Source of the DNA: Gemmataceae bacterium
Lineage (GTDB): Bacteria > Planctomycetota > Planctomycetia > Gemmatales > Gemmataceae
Assembly (NCBI GenBank): GCA_019694755.1
Contig: JAIBBI010000031.1
Coordinates: 1 to 42,884 of the forward strand
Direction of reading: 5' to 3'
Length of the DNA stretch: 42,884 nt
The position numbers were made by a program, and so were the translations under genes. How positions within the stretch are numbered: the first letter of the stretch is position 1; each line of letters opens with the position of its first letter. The notes beneath the pieces are model-generated. The model ran no database searches. It worked only from the letters and a program-made list of their open reading frames with translations, and had not been told where the DNA came from. Shown here one piece after another: positions 1,140-10,120 of the stretch.

Positions 1140-4100
1140 GTGAAGCGACTCACGACGTACCGCGGCCGGAAGGCCGCCCGCCTGACTTTCCTCTCCCTCG
1201 AAAAACGCGATCTGCCTTCGGGCGGCGTGCTCGGCCTTTCGGCCCCGGCCCCGGGGACGGACGAACTTGTTGCTCTCATCGACCCATTTGCCGCGGCCGG
1301 GCGCGGAAAGGAAATTCAACACGGGGGCGGTTGCTCCTGCGGGCTGTGTCAGACACTGGCCGCGGACGTGAAATTGATGGCCATGGGACCGTTCCAGGGG
1401 CCGAACTTCGGTCAGCCGCCGGTGATCGCCAACACCTCGCCGGGCGGCGGGCCGGCCGGGCCGATCAGCCCCATCCCCACGACCTACACGACCGCTGCCA
1501 ATGGCATGCCGCAGCTCAACAGTTCGCCGAGTTCCCCGGTCGCGATCTATCTCGACTTCGACGGAGAGACCGTCGGCAGCACTGTTTACTCGACCTACAA
1601 CGTCACCGGTAGCGATGCCGCCACCTTCGACGCGGCCGAGCAGGCGACGATTTACGAGACCTGGCGGCAGATCCACCTTTACTATTCGATGTTCGATGTG
1701 AACGTGACCACGGTCAAACCCGTGGGCGTGCCGACGGTCTGGCAGCTCATTTCCAATTCAATCAGTGGCGGCTATGCGTACGTGGGCGCGTTTCCCAACT
1801 CGCAACCGCAGGGATTCAATCAGAGCAGCGACGCCCGGACCCGCATCTCCGGCATTGCTCACGAGATCGGGCACAACTTCGCACTCAGTCACCAGTCCGA
1901 TTACGATCTGCTTGCCCAGAAGACGGCCGAGTACTCGAGCGGCTACAGTCTGCACGGCCCGATCATGGGCGTCGACTTCGCCCAAAACGTCCACAAGTTT
2001 GTCGTCAATCACCCGAGTTACTCGGCCAGCAGCCTGCAGGACGACCTGCAACTGATCGCCAACGAGATCAAGCCGTATCAGCCGGTCGGCGGCGACGGCT
2101 TCCGGCCCGACGAACACGGCAATAATGCCGCCACGGCAACCATCCTCGTGCCGGATACCGGCAGCTACGAAGGCTGGGGCGTGATCGAGCGCCCGACCGA
2201 TATCGACGCCTTCAGCTTCACCAGCGTCGGCGGGCTGTACGGTATTTACGGTAATCCCGCGACGCCTTCGAGCCTCGACATCCGGCTGGAGCTGTTCGAT
2301 TCTGCCGGCAACCGGATGGCCACGATCGACCCCGTGGCGATCAACGAGGCCAACGCGGTCGTCGATCTCCCGGCCGGGACGTACACGCTCACCGTCACGG
2401 GACACGGCGACTATGCCGACCTCGGGGCGTATCAGGTCAGCATGCGGCCGCTGCCGGCCGGTTGGAGCAGCACCGATATCGGCACGGTCATCACCGGCGG
2501 ATTTGCGGGGCTGGAGACGACCGGCGTCTGGCGCGTCAGCGGGTCGGGGTCCGACATTGCCGGCACGTCCGACTCATTCCGCTATGCCTACACCACGCTC
2601 ACCGGCAACGGCACGATCGTCGCGAAGGTGACGAACGTTGACGCTACCAACACCGCGGCGAAGGCCGGCGTGATGATCCGCGAGACGACGGCCGCCAACT
2701 CGCGCATGGCGTACATGACCCTGACGCCGACCGCCGCCCAGTTCATTACCCGCACATCGGCCGGGGGAACGGCCGCGATCACGAACGGCACCGGCCAGTT
2801 CCCTTACTGGGTCCGCCTGACCCGCACCGGCAACACCTTGACCGGCAGTGTTTCTCCGGACGGCGTGACTTGGACGACGGTCGGATCGACGACCGTTTCC
2901 ATGGCCTCGCAGGTTACGATCGGGCTCGCGGTCTCGGCGAAGAACTCGTCGCACTACAACCAGATGAACGACGCGACGTTCGAGAACGTCGCCGTCACCG
3001 GCGACACGAGCGTCACGCCGCCCACCCTGAACGCCCTACCGGCCCCCACAGGACTGGCCCTGACTCTAGCGACGGGCACCGGCATCACCGCCAACTGGTC
3101 GGCCGTCGTCGGCGCGACCAGCTATGCCGTCGACCGCTCGACCGACGGCGTCGTCTGGTCGCAGGTCACCACGACTGCGTCTACCAGTTACACGGTCGCC
3201 AGCATCACCGGCGGCCAGCGCTATTTCTACCGCGTGGCCAGCATCGACGGGACCGGCTTGCGGTCCGTCAACTCCGACACGGCGTCGATCATCAATCGAC
3301 CCGACGGCGTCACCAACTTCGAGGTTGTGTCGTACACCACCACCGCCCTGGTCCTCGACTGGCGCGAGACCAACGGCGAGACCGGCTACCGCGTCGAGCG
3401 GTCTGTCGACGGCGGGACGAATTGGACCACGCTCGGAACCGTCGCGAAGAACTTCACCAGTTACACCAACAGCGGCCTGACCCCGGCGACGTCCTACTCG
3501 TACCGCGTGACGCCGCTCTCGGACGACGGCGACGGGCCGACCTCGACCGTGATCACGGCTAGCACCCGCCTGGCCGCGATCTCGGGGCTCACGATCACTT
3601 CGCTCGCGTCCACGCAGGTCAGCCTGTCGTGGGTTGGCGGCGTGGCCGGCGCGACCGGGTATCGCGTCCAGCACTCGACCGACGGCACGACCTTCACCAC
3701 GCTCGCCACGATCACCGGCACGACGTACACGGCCACGGGGCTCACCGCGCTGACGGAGAATTACTTCCGCGTCGCGGCCGTGAACGCACTTTCCGAAAGT
3801 ATCACTCAGCCGCTGGTGTTCACGGCCACTCCGCCCGCGACCGCCCTGCCGTCGCCGTGGATCTCCGCGGACGTCGGGTCGGTCACCGGCAAGGGCGCGA
3901 CCGGGCTGACGGGCAGCACGTTCAAGACGATCGGCTCGGGCTCGACCATCGGCAGCACGGCCGACAGCTTCCAGTTCGCTTATCAGCCGCTCACGGCCGA
4001 CGGCACGCTGATCGCCCGGGTCGCCACGCACGAGGACACGACCGGCACCAGCACCGGCGAAGGCGCGGGCATCATGATCCGCGAATCGCTTAATGCCAAC

Positions 4101-6215
4101 TCGCGTATGGCCTTCGTAGGCGTGACGCCGTCGTCGGGCGCGCGGTTCGCGACTCGTACGTCGACCGGCGGCACCGCAGCGGCGACGACGGTGGCCAGCG
4201 TCACCGCCCCCGAATGGGTCCGCCTGGTGCGGGCCGGGAACACGCTGACCGCGTCATACTCGGCCGACGGAGTGACTTGGACGCAGATCGGCTCGACCAC
4301 CACGATCTCAATGGCGGCCACTGTGTATGCGGGGATGGCGGTGTATGCCGGCTCGACGACGCTGTTGAACACCAGCACGTTCGACAATGTCTCGCTGGAC
4401 CAGGCGGACACGCCGCCGCGAGTGCTCCAGGCGACACCGACGGGGGCTACGGCGTCGCCGGTAACGTCCGTAACCCTGGATTTCTCCCGCGCGATGAACA
4501 CGTCCAGCTTCAGCATCGCGGCCGACGTCCTGTCGTTCACCGGGCCGGCCGGGAACCTTTTGAGCAATGTCACCGGCTTCGGCTGGGCCAGCCCGACATC
4601 GCTCCGCATCGACCTCGCTCCCCAGGTCGTTCCCGGAAGTTACAGCCTCGCGGTCGGCCCGCAGATTCTGGGCACCAACGGAAAGGCCCTGGATCAGGAC
4701 GGCGACAACATCCCCGGGGAATCCACCGACGGTTTTACGGCCAACTTCACGATCGGCCGATCGACCGACGGCTTCGGCTACGCGTGGAACCCGATTGCCT
4801 ACGACGCCTCGCTGAATATTCAGCCCACCGACCCGGGCGTCAGCTCATTCACCGCGCTGAACAACATCGACGATTCCAACGCGGCCTTCAACCTCGGGGC
4901 GAACACGTTCCGGTTCTACAACTCGGTTTACACAGGCGCGTCGTCGCTGTTCCTCGCATCCAACGGCATTGTTACCTTCGGGTCCGGTTCCAGCGACTAC
5001 ACGAACCTCGACCTGACGGCGACTCCGCCGCAGGCGACGATCGCCGCCCTGTGGGACGACCTCGTCACCAATCGCAACACGACGACTGACGACGTAATTC
5101 TCACCAAGTTCGTGGATCTGAATAACGACGGCACGGCCGACCGCCTGATCATCAACTGGCGGAACGTCCATTACTATGTCCAGCAGCCGACTTCCGGCGA
5201 CGACGGCATCACCTTCCAGATGAGCCTGGAGTTGAACACCGGCAGCCGGCCCGGCGACATCATCCTCAACTACGTCGATCTCAACGAAGCCGGCACCGGC
5301 ACGCTCGACGGCGGTTTCAGTTCCACCACCGGCATCAAAGACGTGGGAACGCAGGGCGGCAGTCGGCTGCTGATCTCGCAGGACGGCAGCAATTCGTCGT
5401 TCATCGCCAGCAGCAAGGCCGTCCGAATCTTCGTGAACACCGCGCCGACGGCGAACGCCGGCGGGCCGTACACCCTGACCGGCGCGACCACGAAACTCTC
5501 GGCCGGCGCATCGTCCGACCTCGACCAGTCGACCGCGTCGCTGAACTACCTCTGGGATCTCGACGGCGACGGCATCTTCGGCGAGACCGGGCCGAACGCC
5601 GCCCGGGGCGCCGAAAACGTCATGGAGCCGACCTTCTCGGGGCTGGGCCTGACCGGTCCGCAGGACTTCCCGGTGCAACTCAAGGTCATCGACGAGTTCG
5701 GCGTGCAGTCCTCCTCCGCAGCGACAATTGCCATCCCCGCCCCGCCGACGGTCGCCAATGTTCAGGTGAACGATGGGTCGGTCCAACGATCGCGGGTCAG
5801 TCAGCTGGTGGTCACATTCGACCGGACTGTTTCACTCCCGCCGAACCCATCCTCGGCCTTCATCGTCTCCGGGCCTGGCGGGATCGTTACGACGACACCG
5901 AGCGTAAACAACTCCGGCCCGGCCACCATCGTTACGCTGACTTTCCCGGAGCTCATTGACGGCAAATACAGTCTGACCGTCGTCGGGTCAAACGTCACTG
6001 ACCTGATCGGCCAGGCGATTGTCGGCACGCCTACAACACAGTTCCATCGTCTATTCGGCGACAGCGACGGCGACGGCACCGTGTCCAACGTGGACTTCCT
6101 CGCATTCCGCGCCGCGTTCCTGTCCAGCAACTACACGTTCGATGGCGATGGCGACGGCACTGTGACCACGTCGGACTTCCTGGCGTTCCGACTGCGGTTC
6201 CTAACGAGTGTGTAG
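1140..6215 (+). CDS. Giant secreted metalloprotease-like protein with FN3, lectin-like, PKD and dockerin modules
   Basis: A 1691-residue extracellular protein starting at a GTG. The N-terminus carries FLSLEKRDLPSGG, a planctomycete LExRxLPS-type motif found at the start of many large exported proteins. A peptidase-like domain follows with HEIGHNFALSH at residues 241-251, a metzincin-like HExxHxxxxxH zinc site, and a possible Met-turn at M276. The usual glycine of the metzincin motif is alanine here. Then come a PPC-like beta-sandwich (about 320-440), two related DUF1349/concanavalin-like modules (about 442-620 and 907-1087), three fibronectin type III domains between them (about 633-895), an Ig-like domain (about 1091-1195), a nidogen-like region, a PKD domain (from about 1437), another Ig-like domain, and two dockerin/EF-type calcium loops at 1641 and 1668. 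The C-terminal loops suggest attachment to a cohesin-like partner or simple calcium stabilisation (inference). Substrate unknown. Confidence 0.85.
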   Translation: MKRLTTYRGRKAARLTFLSLEKRDLPSGGVLGLSAPAPGTDELVALIDPFAAAGRGKEIQHGGGCSCGLCQTLAADVKLMAMGPFQGPNFGQPPVIANTSPGGGPAGPISPIPTTYTTAANGMPQLNSSPSSPVAIYLDFDGETVGSTVYSTYNVTGSDAATFDAAEQATIYETWRQIHLYYSMFDVNVTTVKPVGVPTVWQLISNSISGGYAYVGAFPNSQPQGFNQSSDARTRISGIAHEIGHNFALSHQSDYDLLAQKTAEYSSGYSLHGPIMGVDFAQNVHKFVVNHPSYSASSLQDDLQLIANEIKPYQPVGGDGFRPDEHGNNAATATILVPDTGSYEGWGVIERPTDIDAFSFTSVGGLYGIYGNPATPSSLDIRLELFDSAGNRMATIDPVAINEANAVVDLPAGTYTLTVTGHGDYADLGAYQVSMRPLPAGWSSTDIGTVITGGFAGLETTGVWRVSGSGSDIAGTSDSFRYAYTTLTGNGTIVAKVTNVDATNTAAKAGVMIRETTAANSRMAYMTLTPTAAQFITRTSAGGTAAITNGTGQFPYWVRLTRTGNTLTGSVSPDGVTWTTVGSTTVSMASQVTIGLAVSAKNSSHYNQMNDATFENVAVTGDTSVTPPTLNALPAPTGLALTLATGTGITANWSAVVGATSYAVDRSTDGVVWSQVTTTASTSYTVASITGGQRYFYRVASIDGTGLRSVNSDTASIINRPDGVTNFEVVSYTTTALVLDWRETNGETGYRVERSVDGGTNWTTLGTVAKNFTSYTNSGLTPATSYSYRVTPLSDDGDGPTSTVITASTRLAAISGLTITSLASTQVSLSWVGGVAGATGYRVQHSTDGTTFTTLATITGTTYTATGLTALTENYFRVAAVNALSESITQPLVFTATPPATALPSPWISADVGSVTGKGATGLTGSTFKTIGSGSTIGSTADSFQFAYQPLTADGTLIARVATHEDTTGTSTGEGAGIMIRESLNANSRMAFVGVTPSSGARFATRTSTGGTAAATTVASVTAPEWVRLVRAGNTLTASYSADGVTWTQIGSTTTISMAATVYAGMAVYAGSTTLLNTSTFDNVSLDQADTPPRVLQATPTGATASPVTSVTLDFSRAMNTSSFSIAADVLSFTGPAGNLLSNVTGFGWASPTSLRIDLAPQVVPGSYSLAVGPQILGTNGKALDQDGDNIPGESTDGFTANFTIGRSTDGFGYAWNPIAYDASLNIQPTDPGVSSFTALNNIDDSNAAFNLGANTFRFYNSVYTGASSLFLASNGIVTFGSGSSDYTNLDLTATPPQATIAALWDDLVTNRNTTTDDVILTKFVDLNNDGTADRLIINWRNVHYYVQQPTSGDDGITFQMSLELNTGSRPGDIILNYVDLNEAGTGTLDGGFSSTTGIKDVGTQGGSRLLISQDGSNSSFIASSKAVRIFVNTAPTANAGGPYTLTGATTKLSAGASSDLDQSTASLNYLWDLDGDGIFGETGPNAARGAENVMEPTFSGLGLTGPQDFPVQLKVIDEFGVQSSSAATIAIPAPPTVANVQVNDGSVQRSRVSQLVVTFDRTVSLPPNPSSAFIVSGPGGIVTTTPSVNNSGPATIVTLTFPELIDGKYSLTVVGSNVTDLIGQAIVGTPTTQFHRLFGDSDGDGTVSNVDFLAFRAAFLSSNYTFDGDGDGTVTTSDFLAFRLRFLTSV

Positions 6216-8207: not shown

Positions 8208-9272
8208 ATGATCCGCGAAGCCCTGATTGCCCTGATGTTGGTCACCCCCGCAGTCGCCGACGACAACCCGGTGACCCAGGCCGACGAACTGCTCCGGAAG
8301 ACCTTCCCGGCCGACAAGCCGGGGGCCGCCGTCGCCATCGTCCACAAGGGCACAAACGTCCTGCTGCAGGGCTACGGCCTCGCCGACCTCGACACGAAGA
8401 CGCCGATCACCGGCGACACCGCATTCGATCTCGCCTCGGTGTCCAAGCAGTTCACGTCGACGGCCGTGCTGCTGCTCGTGGAGCGTGGCCGGCTGAACCT
8501 CGACGACCCGGTCGTCCGCTGGGTGCCCGACTTCCCCGCGGGTGATGCGATCACGCTCCGGCACCTGCTCACGCACACCTCGGGCCTGCCCGACTACATC
8601 GGCATCTTCAAAGGCTCGGACGAGGAGTTTGCCAGGCTCACCTGCCACGACATCGCGGGCATGCTCCGCGGGAAGAAGGCGCTGTTCCCGCCCGGCACGA
8701 AGTTTCAATACTCGAACACCAATTACGCCCTGCTGCCCGTCGTCGTCGAGCGGGCGTCGGGCAAGACCTTCGCGCAGTTCCTGCGGGATTACGTGTTCGT
8801 GCCGCTGGGCATGGACTCGACCCGGGTCATGGACCGCGTGCCCTACGACGTGGCCAACCGGGCCAGCGGGTACGGCCGGCAGTTCCTCGTGGGCAAGCAC
8901 GTCCCCAGCCGGCGAGACGGGCCCGTGTGCGGCGACGGCAACGTCTTCAGCACGGCCCGTGACATGATTGCGTGGAATGCCGCCCTCGAAGAGCGTCGCC
9001 TGCTCCGCCCGGAGACGTGGGAGCAGGCATGGACCAAGACGCCGATCGCGGAGGGCAAGCAGAGCGATTACGGGTTCGGCTGGGTAGTCAGCGAGAAGGA
9101 AGGCCGCAAGGCGGTCTGGCACAACGGCGGCTGGGCCGGCACAAGAACGCTGATCTTCCGCCGGCTCTCGGACAAACTGACGGTCATCGTGCTCAGCAAC
9201 GACGAAGGAGCCAACGTCGACAAAGTCGGCACCGACGTAATGAAGCTGTTCTACCCGCCGGAGAAGAAGTAG
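8208..9272 (+). CDS. Secreted serine hydrolase, beta-lactamase/penicillin-binding-protein-like
   Basis: A 354-residue exported member of the class C beta-lactamase/DD-peptidase (S12-type) superfamily. A short signal peptide (MIREALIALMLVTPAVA) is followed by the catalytic SxxK tetrad S77-V-S-K80 inside DLASVSKQF, the YxN motif Y168-S-N170, and HNGG in the place of the KTG box near the C-terminus. It could be an esterase, a D-amino-acid peptidase or a peptidoglycan-active enzyme; a true beta-lactamase role cannot be inferred. The ATG at 8208 is chosen because the signal peptide starts there; an in-frame extension upstream would run through truB's divergent promoter. About 60 bp after the stop begins a three-hairpin element. 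Confidence 0.9.
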   Translation: MIREALIALMLVTPAVADDNPVTQADELLRKTFPADKPGAAVAIVHKGTNVLLQGYGLADLDTKTPITGDTAFDLASVSKQFTSTAVLLLVERGRLNLDDPVVRWVPDFPAGDAITLRHLLTHTSGLPDYIGIFKGSDEEFARLTCHDIAGMLRGKKALFPPGTKFQYSNTNYALLPVVVERASGKTFAQFLRDYVFVPLGMDSTRVMDRVPYDVANRASGYGRQFLVGKHVPSRRDGPVCGDGNVFSTARDMIAWNAALEERRLLRPETWEQAWTKTPIAEGKQSDYGFGWVVSEKEGRKAVWHNGGWAGTRTLIFRRLSDKLTVIVLSNDEGANVDKVGTDVMKLFYPPEKK

Positions 9273-9328
9273 AGACTGACGCGAAATGCGTAAACGTTGT
9301 TGCCGATTCGTTGTGCGACTGGCCAATT

Positions 9329-9414
9329 GAGCGCGGCCCTTCAGGCCGCTATGCAGGGCGGAACGTCTACCCGGCCCGTTGGGCCGGGCTAAGGAAGGTG
9401 GGTCCTTCGGACCC
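9329..9414 (+). repeat. Three-hairpin palindromic element, copy 1
   Basis: Three hairpins lie in tandem: GCGGCC/GGCCGC (9333-9338 and 9344-9349, loop CTTCA), CCCGGCCC/GGGCCGGG (9370-9377 and 9381-9388, loop GTT), the single-stranded linker CTAAGGAAGG (9389-9398), and GGGTCC/GGACCC (9400-9405 and 9409-9414, loop TTC). The element begins about 60 bp after the hydrolase stop codon. A second copy in inverted orientation sits downstream of ruvX. Confidence 0.8.
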
Positions 9415-9568
9415 GCAGTTGTTCACAGTACGCTCGGACCAAGTGGCCAAAAATCTTCTTCCCATCGTTACAGGCTAGTTTAGCTGGATAAACATCGATC
9501 TTTGCTGAACAGACCAAGTTCCCCGAGCCCCACGTAGCGGGCCGGGTCCGAAACAATGAACGGAATTC

Positions 9569-9655
9569 TTGGCCCAACGGGCCAACCTTCCTTAGCCCAG
9601 CCCGCCGGGCTGGGAAAATGGACAGCGCGCAAGTGCGGCCTGAAGGGCCGCGCTC
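9569..9655 (-). repeat. Three-hairpin palindromic element, copy 2 (inverted)
   Basis: Read on the minus strand, this repeats copy 1 in the same order: GCGGCC/GGCCGC with identical flanks (9635-9651), CCCAGCCC/GGGCTGGG (9596-9614), the same linker CTAAGGAAGG (9586-9595), and a third stem TTGGCCC/GGGCCAA (9569-9585). The second and third stems differ from copy 1 in sequence but keep perfect pairing. It starts about 43 bp after the ruvX stop, so each convergent gene is followed by one copy in the same relative orientation. Confidence 0.8.
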
Positions 9656-9697
9656 GGAAACGAAGCCGACGATCCCAAACAAATCGCCTTTCGCGAT

Positions 9698-10120
9698 TCA
9701 CTCCGGGCAGCCGGCTTCCATGTACGATTGCAGGATCATCTGGGCGGCCACGCGGTCGCGGCGCTCGGCCCGCTTCCGGTGCGTGAGCCCTGCCGACCAG
9801 AGCGCGGCTTCGGCCTGCACCGTCGAGAACCGCTCGTCCCAATAATGAACCGGCAGCGACGTGACCTGATTCAGCATCTGCCCGAAGGCCCGGGCCAGTT
9901 CGGCCGACTTGCCCTCCCGGCCGTCGTTGTGCATCGGCAACCCGACGACGATCGCGACGATCTGCTCGCGGGCGATCAGCGACTTGTAGTGGGCCGCGTC
10001 CGACTCGGCATCCTGCCGTTCGTACGTCTCCAGTGGCGACGCGATGATCCGGTCCGGGTCGGTGACCGCGAACCCGACCCGCTTCATGCCGAAATCGACG
10101 CCGAGCAGCCGACCCTTCAC
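9698..10120 (-). CDS. ruvX: Putative Holliday junction resolvase / pre-16S rRNA nuclease
   Basis: A 140-residue YqgF/RuvX-family protein with an RNase H-like fold. Members process 16S rRNA 5' ends and have been proposed to resolve Holliday junctions. Visible motifs are the N-terminal LLGVDFGMKRVGFAVTD with a catalytic aspartate at D9, IVVGLPMHNDGREG in the middle, and YWDERFSTVQAE with the second acidic residue near the C-terminus. The start is the GTG at 10120, which overlaps the stop of manC as GTGA. A longer in-frame reading upstream lies inside manC and is rejected. The overlap implies translational coupling with manC, although their functions are unrelated. Confidence 0.92.
   Translation of the reverse strand: MKGRLLGVDFGMKRVGFAVTDPDRIIASPLETYERQDAESDAAHYKSLIAREQIVAIVVGLPMHNDGREGKSAELARAFGQMLNQVTSLPVHYWDERFSTVQAEAALWSAGLTHRKRAERRDRVAAQMILQSYMEAGCPE

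Follow-up and report, generated by a model that had tools for sequence, protein, structure and literature searches.

TnpA(Y1) proteins of subclass 1.2 carry the signature Y---Q--HH (Quentin et al. 2018, PMC6006769). According to that survey they occur mostly in Cyanobacteria and Bacteroidetes, in low copy number, generally without terminal structures of the IS200 type and without REP sequences, and they are not counted as insertion sequences (IS). Single-strand transposons of the IS200/IS605 type, as a passage of the same paper states, target the lagging-strand template. A different kind of description exists for the Rfam family RF01687 (Acido-Lenti-1), which a passage of Weinberg et al. 2010 (PMC2864571) presents as a probable RNA of Acidobacteria and Lentisphaerae that is not cis-regulatory. 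In a passage of a 2026 paper on Tannerella (PMC13298647), Acido-Lenti-1 copies are located downstream of two protease genes, and regulation is suggested. These literature passages offer no function for Acido-Lenti-1, and nothing was found in the literature on the palindromes described here or on REPs in Gemmata.

The window of the current work is a whole stretch of 42,884 nucleotides, contig C42 of a 5.64-Mb draft genome of a Gemmataceae bacterium. Two inverted copies (A and B) of a three-hairpin element are located in the gap between two convergent genes of this window. Very probably they are the left end (A) and the right end (B) of a small family of IS200-like transposons with a Y1/HUH transposase of the TnpA(Y1) subclass-1.2 type. 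Such ends flank tnpA symmetrically, form gene-less inverted pairs, track tnpA across genomes and keep their pairing; the transposon appears to recognise folded single-stranded DNA.

The pair of half-elements in the window

The left neighbour of the pair is a serine beta-lactamase-like gene with its stop at 9272, and the right neighbour is a convergent ruvX-like gene with its stop at 9698 (both named by eye from their translations). Stem 1 begins 60 bp after the stop codon in copy A and 46 bp after it in copy B, so the copies do start soon after stop codons, as a sequence-only reading of this DNA had reported. That reading had also described the shared order of stem 1, stem 2, the linker CTAAGGAAGG and stem 3 in both copies, which is plainly seen in the sequence. 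In the whole window the linker and stem 1 have two exact matches each, namely those of copies A and B.

Copy A (9330-9416, + strand) is a left-type (L) half-element, in which stem 1 is followed by a spacer of about 20 nt, stem 2, the linker and stem 3. Stem 1, GCGGCC(cttca)GGCCGC, is found as an exact match at 9333-9349 (+), and stem 2, CCCGGCCC(gtt)GGGCCGGG, occupies 9370-9388 (+) and is followed by CT. The exactly matching linker at 9389-9398 (+) leads from stem 2 to stem 3, which is GGGTCC(ttc)GGACCC at 9400-9414 (+) and belongs to the L type, the one located 5' of tnpA in two full elements of the same genome (contigs C178 and C251). Copy B (9567-9655, - strand) is an inverted right-type (R) half-element, with stem 1 at 9635-9651 (-, exact match), stem 2, CCCAGCCC(ggc)GGGCTGGG, at 9614-9596 (-), the exactly matching linker at 9595-9586 (-) and stem 3, TTGGCCC(gtt)GGGCCAA, at 9585-9569 (-).

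The limits of both copies rest on the sequence, on comparison of the intergenic DNA with the whole genome, in which the repeated parts extend over about 9326-9418 and about 9563-9656, and on R1, a covariance model of the half-element in whose building neither window copy was used. R1 matches copy A at 9335-9414 (E 1.9e-9) and copy B at 9570-9649 (E 3.6e-9). Folded as single-stranded DNA, both strands of both copies score better than shuffles (z -2.4 to -3.6). The 150 bp separating the halves (9417-9566, no strand assigned) contain neither a repeat nor a recognised gene and, like the DNA outside the copies, occur nowhere else in the genome. An intrinsic terminator, in the form of a G+C-rich stem followed by a T-run, is absent at copies A and B; an unrelated match is located at 9668-9688. 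No promoter matches beyond chance were found at the two copies.

In the window pair, the L and R halves stand in swapped order with stem 1 outside. This pair is probably an immobile remnant, made up of one L and one R half, and it could be left over from two elements that were neighbours. The swapped order is not what a simple insertion would produce, and pairs of the same arrangement are present in a related genome (G013, below). Elsewhere in the window, a very large secreted-type protein is encoded at 1140-6215 (+); by eye, it has a HEIGHN motif like that of metalloproteases, repeats resembling fibronectin and, at the C-terminus, a dockerin-like repeat (DGDGTVSNVDFLAFR / DGDGTVTTSDFLAFR).

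Dispersed ends and the transposase that accompanies them

Further copies, which the sequence-only reading had proposed to look for, exist both in this genome and in related ones. The pattern GGGCTAAGGAAGG occurs 12 times in the window's genome and stem 1 is matched 13 times, against 1 and 2 for their reversed-pattern controls, and R1 gives at least 25 matches at E<=0.01. Three-hairpin halves were found at about ten sites. They fall into two types, with stem 3 built on GGTCC/GGACC in L halves such as copy A and on GGCCC/GGGCC in R halves such as copy B. At C178 and C251 the elements are full, with an L half 5' of the transposase gene and an R half 3' of it. Seven other sites hold gene-less L/R pairs, close together and head to head with stem 1 inside, four of them recognised by reading the sites (C72, C115, C208, C232) and three with the R1 model (C77, C1, C99); these short gene-less pairs resemble MITEs or REPINs.

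Among the halves read in this genome, stem 1 is identical in 13 of 14, and stem 2 has the foot TTAG-CCC. From stem 1 to stem 2 the spacer is always 18-22 nt long but nearly unshared in sequence (mean pairwise score of 13 spacers 0.35, shuffled 0.31). The hairpins are the conserved part. The nine sites read are all intergenic; five are located between convergent genes, four between tandem genes and none between divergent genes. REP-like DNA commonly shows such a placement.

At C208:7417-7711, a 60-bp stretch of the R half without stem 1 is repeated head to tail in about five decaying copies. Every unit stops right behind stem 3, an observation in favour of stem 3 as the element's border.

The two full elements encode proteins of 155 and 174 aa as called. 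Both match Pfam Y1_Tnp (PF01797; E 4e-25 and 5e-21), both score against the NCBIfam model NF033573 for IS200/IS605 transposases (68.8 and 53.0 bits, cut-off 55), and the first also matches the putative transposase structure 2fyx (E 4e-8). In an end-to-end alignment with 13 planctomycete relatives, HuH and Q--HH are invariant and the Y at position 115 is present in nearly all; the full Y---Q--HH motif was found in both proteins of this genome and in 90 of 95 loci. The alignment likewise shows the features by which subclass 1.2 is described, DH[IV]H (DHVH here), WQ, a length of about 148 aa and a specific C-terminal extension (DERYVWD here), the WQ being independent evidence in the first 15 loci only, since the other 80 were retrieved with a pattern that contains it. 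By motif, the enzyme is thus putatively assigned to the TnpA(Y1) subclass 1.2 type. No tnpB was seen in the two full elements of this genome, and no relatives of the transposase were found among viral contigs.

The ends and the transposase occur together in related genomes. Among 41 genomes searched with R1, half-elements were present in all 15 that have the transposase and in 6 of 26 that lack it (Fisher p 1e-6), with counts per genome of up to at least 97. A profile search for the transposase gave the same picture, plus one weak match in a genome lacking copies. One genome of the set, G013, contains at least 61 half-elements (R1), and no transposase of this family was detected in it by the profile search. 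Many pairs of G013 have stem 3 inward, in swapped order, with a conserved interior of 100 bp and conserved outer flanks, and several are located at contig ends. An empty insertion site was sought in one same-genus pair of genomes (G025/G026), in which no shared flank was found.

A scan of bacterial genomes with a peptide pattern that included WQ extended the comparison. The best 80 of 586 candidate tnpA loci belong to Planctomycetes, Verrucomicrobia, Acidobacteria, Bacteroidetes, Armatimonadetes, Lentisphaerae and other phyla. The upstream and downstream flanks of tnpA are mutually inverted in 56 of 88 loci, compared with 0 of 69 windows taken 800 bp away (threshold at the 99% level of cross-locus pairs). 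A strict detector, which demands the order stem 1, spacer, stem 2, CT, spacer and stem 3, found triple hairpins pointing outward in 55 of 183 flanks and inward in 5 of 183, whereas of 1928 distal windows it fired on 2 and of 1830 shuffles on none. For copies A and B, a palindromic repeat family of planctomycetes was suggested earlier; the repeat family holds, but as the end of a transposon and with a range well beyond planctomycetes.

These halves share one architecture: about 22 nt of unconstrained sequence separate stem 1 from stem 2, which measures 8 bp and has an invariant CT behind it, and about 12 nt lead on to stem 3. Of 57 halves, 53 have a stem 2 of exactly 8 bp; the GGCT at its 3' foot is the same in all 33 halves that were aligned, and the consensus after stem 2 is GGCT[A/G]. 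In this alignment 98.1% of cells are paired, a value inflated by the detector's demand for perfect stems, which does not inflate the variety of sequences that fit. Changes on both sides were observed in 13 of 18 pairs, and covariation reaches 0.444, compared with 0.142 in shuffled and at most 0.140 in slid alignments. Selection on structure, as proposed in the earlier reading, is supported by these values. Its example of compensatory change in stem 3 has to be amended: copies A and B do not show a single stem that drifted by compensation, but the left-end and right-end types of one element, as seen at other sites.

The orientation of the ends was followed in G034, whose single 7.6-Mb contig is a complete chromosome whose GC skew is mostly positive up to about 3.75 Mb and turns negative after that. 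The L-type end was found at 29 positions on the + strand and 18 on the - strand (reversed control, none). Grouped by site, with two mixed sites left out and gene orientation disregarded, the left replichore holds 9 sites on - and 2 on +, and the right one 2 on - and 14 on + (p 9e-4); thus 23 of 27 sites fit the replichore orientation in this one genome, a bias that was noticed first and tested afterwards. Such a bias is expected, because single-strand transposons target the lagging-strand template. In the segment at about 200-580 kb of G034:C1 the skew is reversed for its replichore, as after an inversion, and one of the two wrongly oriented sites on that side is located there. Divided by local skew, a split chosen after seeing the data, the counts become 9/1 and 2/15 (p 1e-4), but with this split the transposase gene at 213 kb no longer fits. 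In G034, units resembling stem 3 also form long head-to-tail arrays that extend outward from element ends, which suggests repeated one-ended extension at stem 3.

The identity of RF01687 and competing explanations

At gathering level, the whole window has no match to Rfam. A permissive scan of the small region gave one full-length match, to RF01687, in copy B, where stem 2, linker and stem 3 (9570-9614, -) score 26.8 bits (E 4.6e-4), below the gathering threshold of 37. Two other copies in this genome, at C72 and C251, exceed it with 39.8 and 37.3 bits. The 46 positions of the family correspond to the part of the element end that runs from stem 2 through the linker to stem 3. In tnpA loci totalling about 430 kb (77 of the 80 loci plus three from relatives) there are 33 matches at gathering level, of which, by our own count, 32 are within 400 bp of tnpA and 26 of those point outward; the only other Rfam matches in these loci are two tRNAs. 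Of the 15 genomes with the transposase, 12 contain RF01687, as do 5 of the 26 that lack it (p 2e-4; 41 genomes in all), and it was not found in 14 control genomes. RF01687 is therefore likely to be not an RNA gene family but the terminal hairpin pair of cross-phylum single-strand transposons driven by subclass-1.2 TnpA. The three-hairpin ends, and gene-less copies mobilised in trans, would place this lineage between IS200 and REPIN systems. Acido-Lenti-1 probably needs to be reclassified.

An explanation closer to the existing annotation is a structured RNA, with hairpins that act in transcripts as terminators, as stabilisers of mRNA 3' ends or as protein-binding RNA. The hairpins are strong, compensatory changes occur in their stems, copies A and B follow closely on stop codons, five of the nine sites are between convergent genes, and RF01687 is labelled an sRNA by Rfam and was judged probably RNA in the 2010 passage (PMC2864571). 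The stems, however, have no T-tract, promoter matches do not exceed chance, and four of the nine sites are between tandem genes. Nearly all RF01687 matches in the tnpA loci adjoin tnpA, mostly in inverted symmetry, and a replichore bias would be unexpected unless explained by gene orientation. Stem 2 shows no G-U excess, with 5 G-U against 10 A-C, a weak test on 15 informative cells. A structured RNA is thus an unlikely account. The 3'-end RNA element, one of two possibilities named in the sequence-only reading, finds no support as the primary role, because the halves flank and travel with a transposase gene in inverted pairs, without terminator T-tracts or a G-U excess. Structural selection is as compatible with recognition of the hairpins in single-stranded DNA as with their recognition in RNA, and transcribed copies may still have a secondary RNA role.

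The inverted pairs, extragenic sites, conserved hairpins with variable spacers, tandem arrays and nuclease gene flanked by the same repeats also recall ordinary REPs or REPINs of a RAYT (TnpA-REP, class 2), that is, a domesticated transposase with GTAG-tagged palindromes. The transposase, however, has the class 1 motif Y---Q and not Y...NP, each end has three hairpins and not one, and the foot of stem 2 is [TC]AG-C, with GTAG only occasional and the tetranucleotides GT[AG]G/CGTC not conserved as a tag. A RAYT system of this kind is very improbable. Chance, in the form of two unrelated palindromes in G+C-rich intergenic DNA, has almost nothing left to recommend it: short stems are common at high G+C, but these recur throughout the genome, with next to no counterparts in reversed-pattern controls, their fold z-scores are -2.4 to -3.6, and the model built without copies A and B matches them at E 1.9e-9 and 3.6e-9. 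The further copies in the genome refute it.

Transposition model and comparison with known systems

For the transposon family preferred here, we infer mobility, strand and cleavage sites along the following lines. The ends would fold once the lagging-strand template DNA is single-stranded, and TnpA would bind the folded ends. Its tyrosine would cut next to the hairpins and the ends would then be joined, while gene-less pairs could spread in trans in the manner of REPINs or MITEs. The cleavage or guide site may lie in the invariant GGCT where stem 2 has its foot, or else at the outer foot of stem 3.

If this identification of RF01687 is true, an RNA family annotated by pipelines gains a concrete and testable alternative identity. 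For the Acido-Lenti-1 copies at the Tannerella protease genes, the end of a mobile element would be an alternative to regulation. Subclass 1.2, described as lacking transposon ends, would gain a substrate and a system, and the full elements, gene-less pairs and solo ends would provide a setting in which to study the step from an IS to a domesticated REP system.

The element shares with the surveyed TnpA(Y1) subclass 1.2 (PMC6006769) the DHVH, WQ and Y---Q--HH motifs, the length of about 150 aa and the conserved C-terminal tail. It differs from that survey in its symmetric triple-hairpin ends, in its dispersed copies and in its hosts, which include Planctomycetes, Verrucomicrobia, Acidobacteria and others. 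RF01687, as delimited in the passage of PMC2864571, covers neither stem 1 nor the second inverted copy nor the transposase. With IS200/IS605 elements such as IS608 and ISDra2, the family has in common a Y1/HUH transposase, subterminal hairpins at both ends and a replichore strand bias; in contrast to them, its ends are nearly symmetric and carry three hairpins each in place of one, its full copies are few and its gene-less copies many, and no tnpB was seen in the two full elements of this genome. REPINs of RAYTs (Bertels and Rainey 2011, PMC3116915) are likewise non-autonomous, intergenic inverted hairpin pairs tied to a Y1 protein, with conserved hairpins, free spacers and singlets as remnants, but here the transposase is of another class, the GTAG tag is absent, and the three-hairpin halves are of L and R types. 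What is new here is a probable single-strand transposon of subclass 1.2 whose ends consist of three hairpins and whose non-autonomous copies are dispersed.
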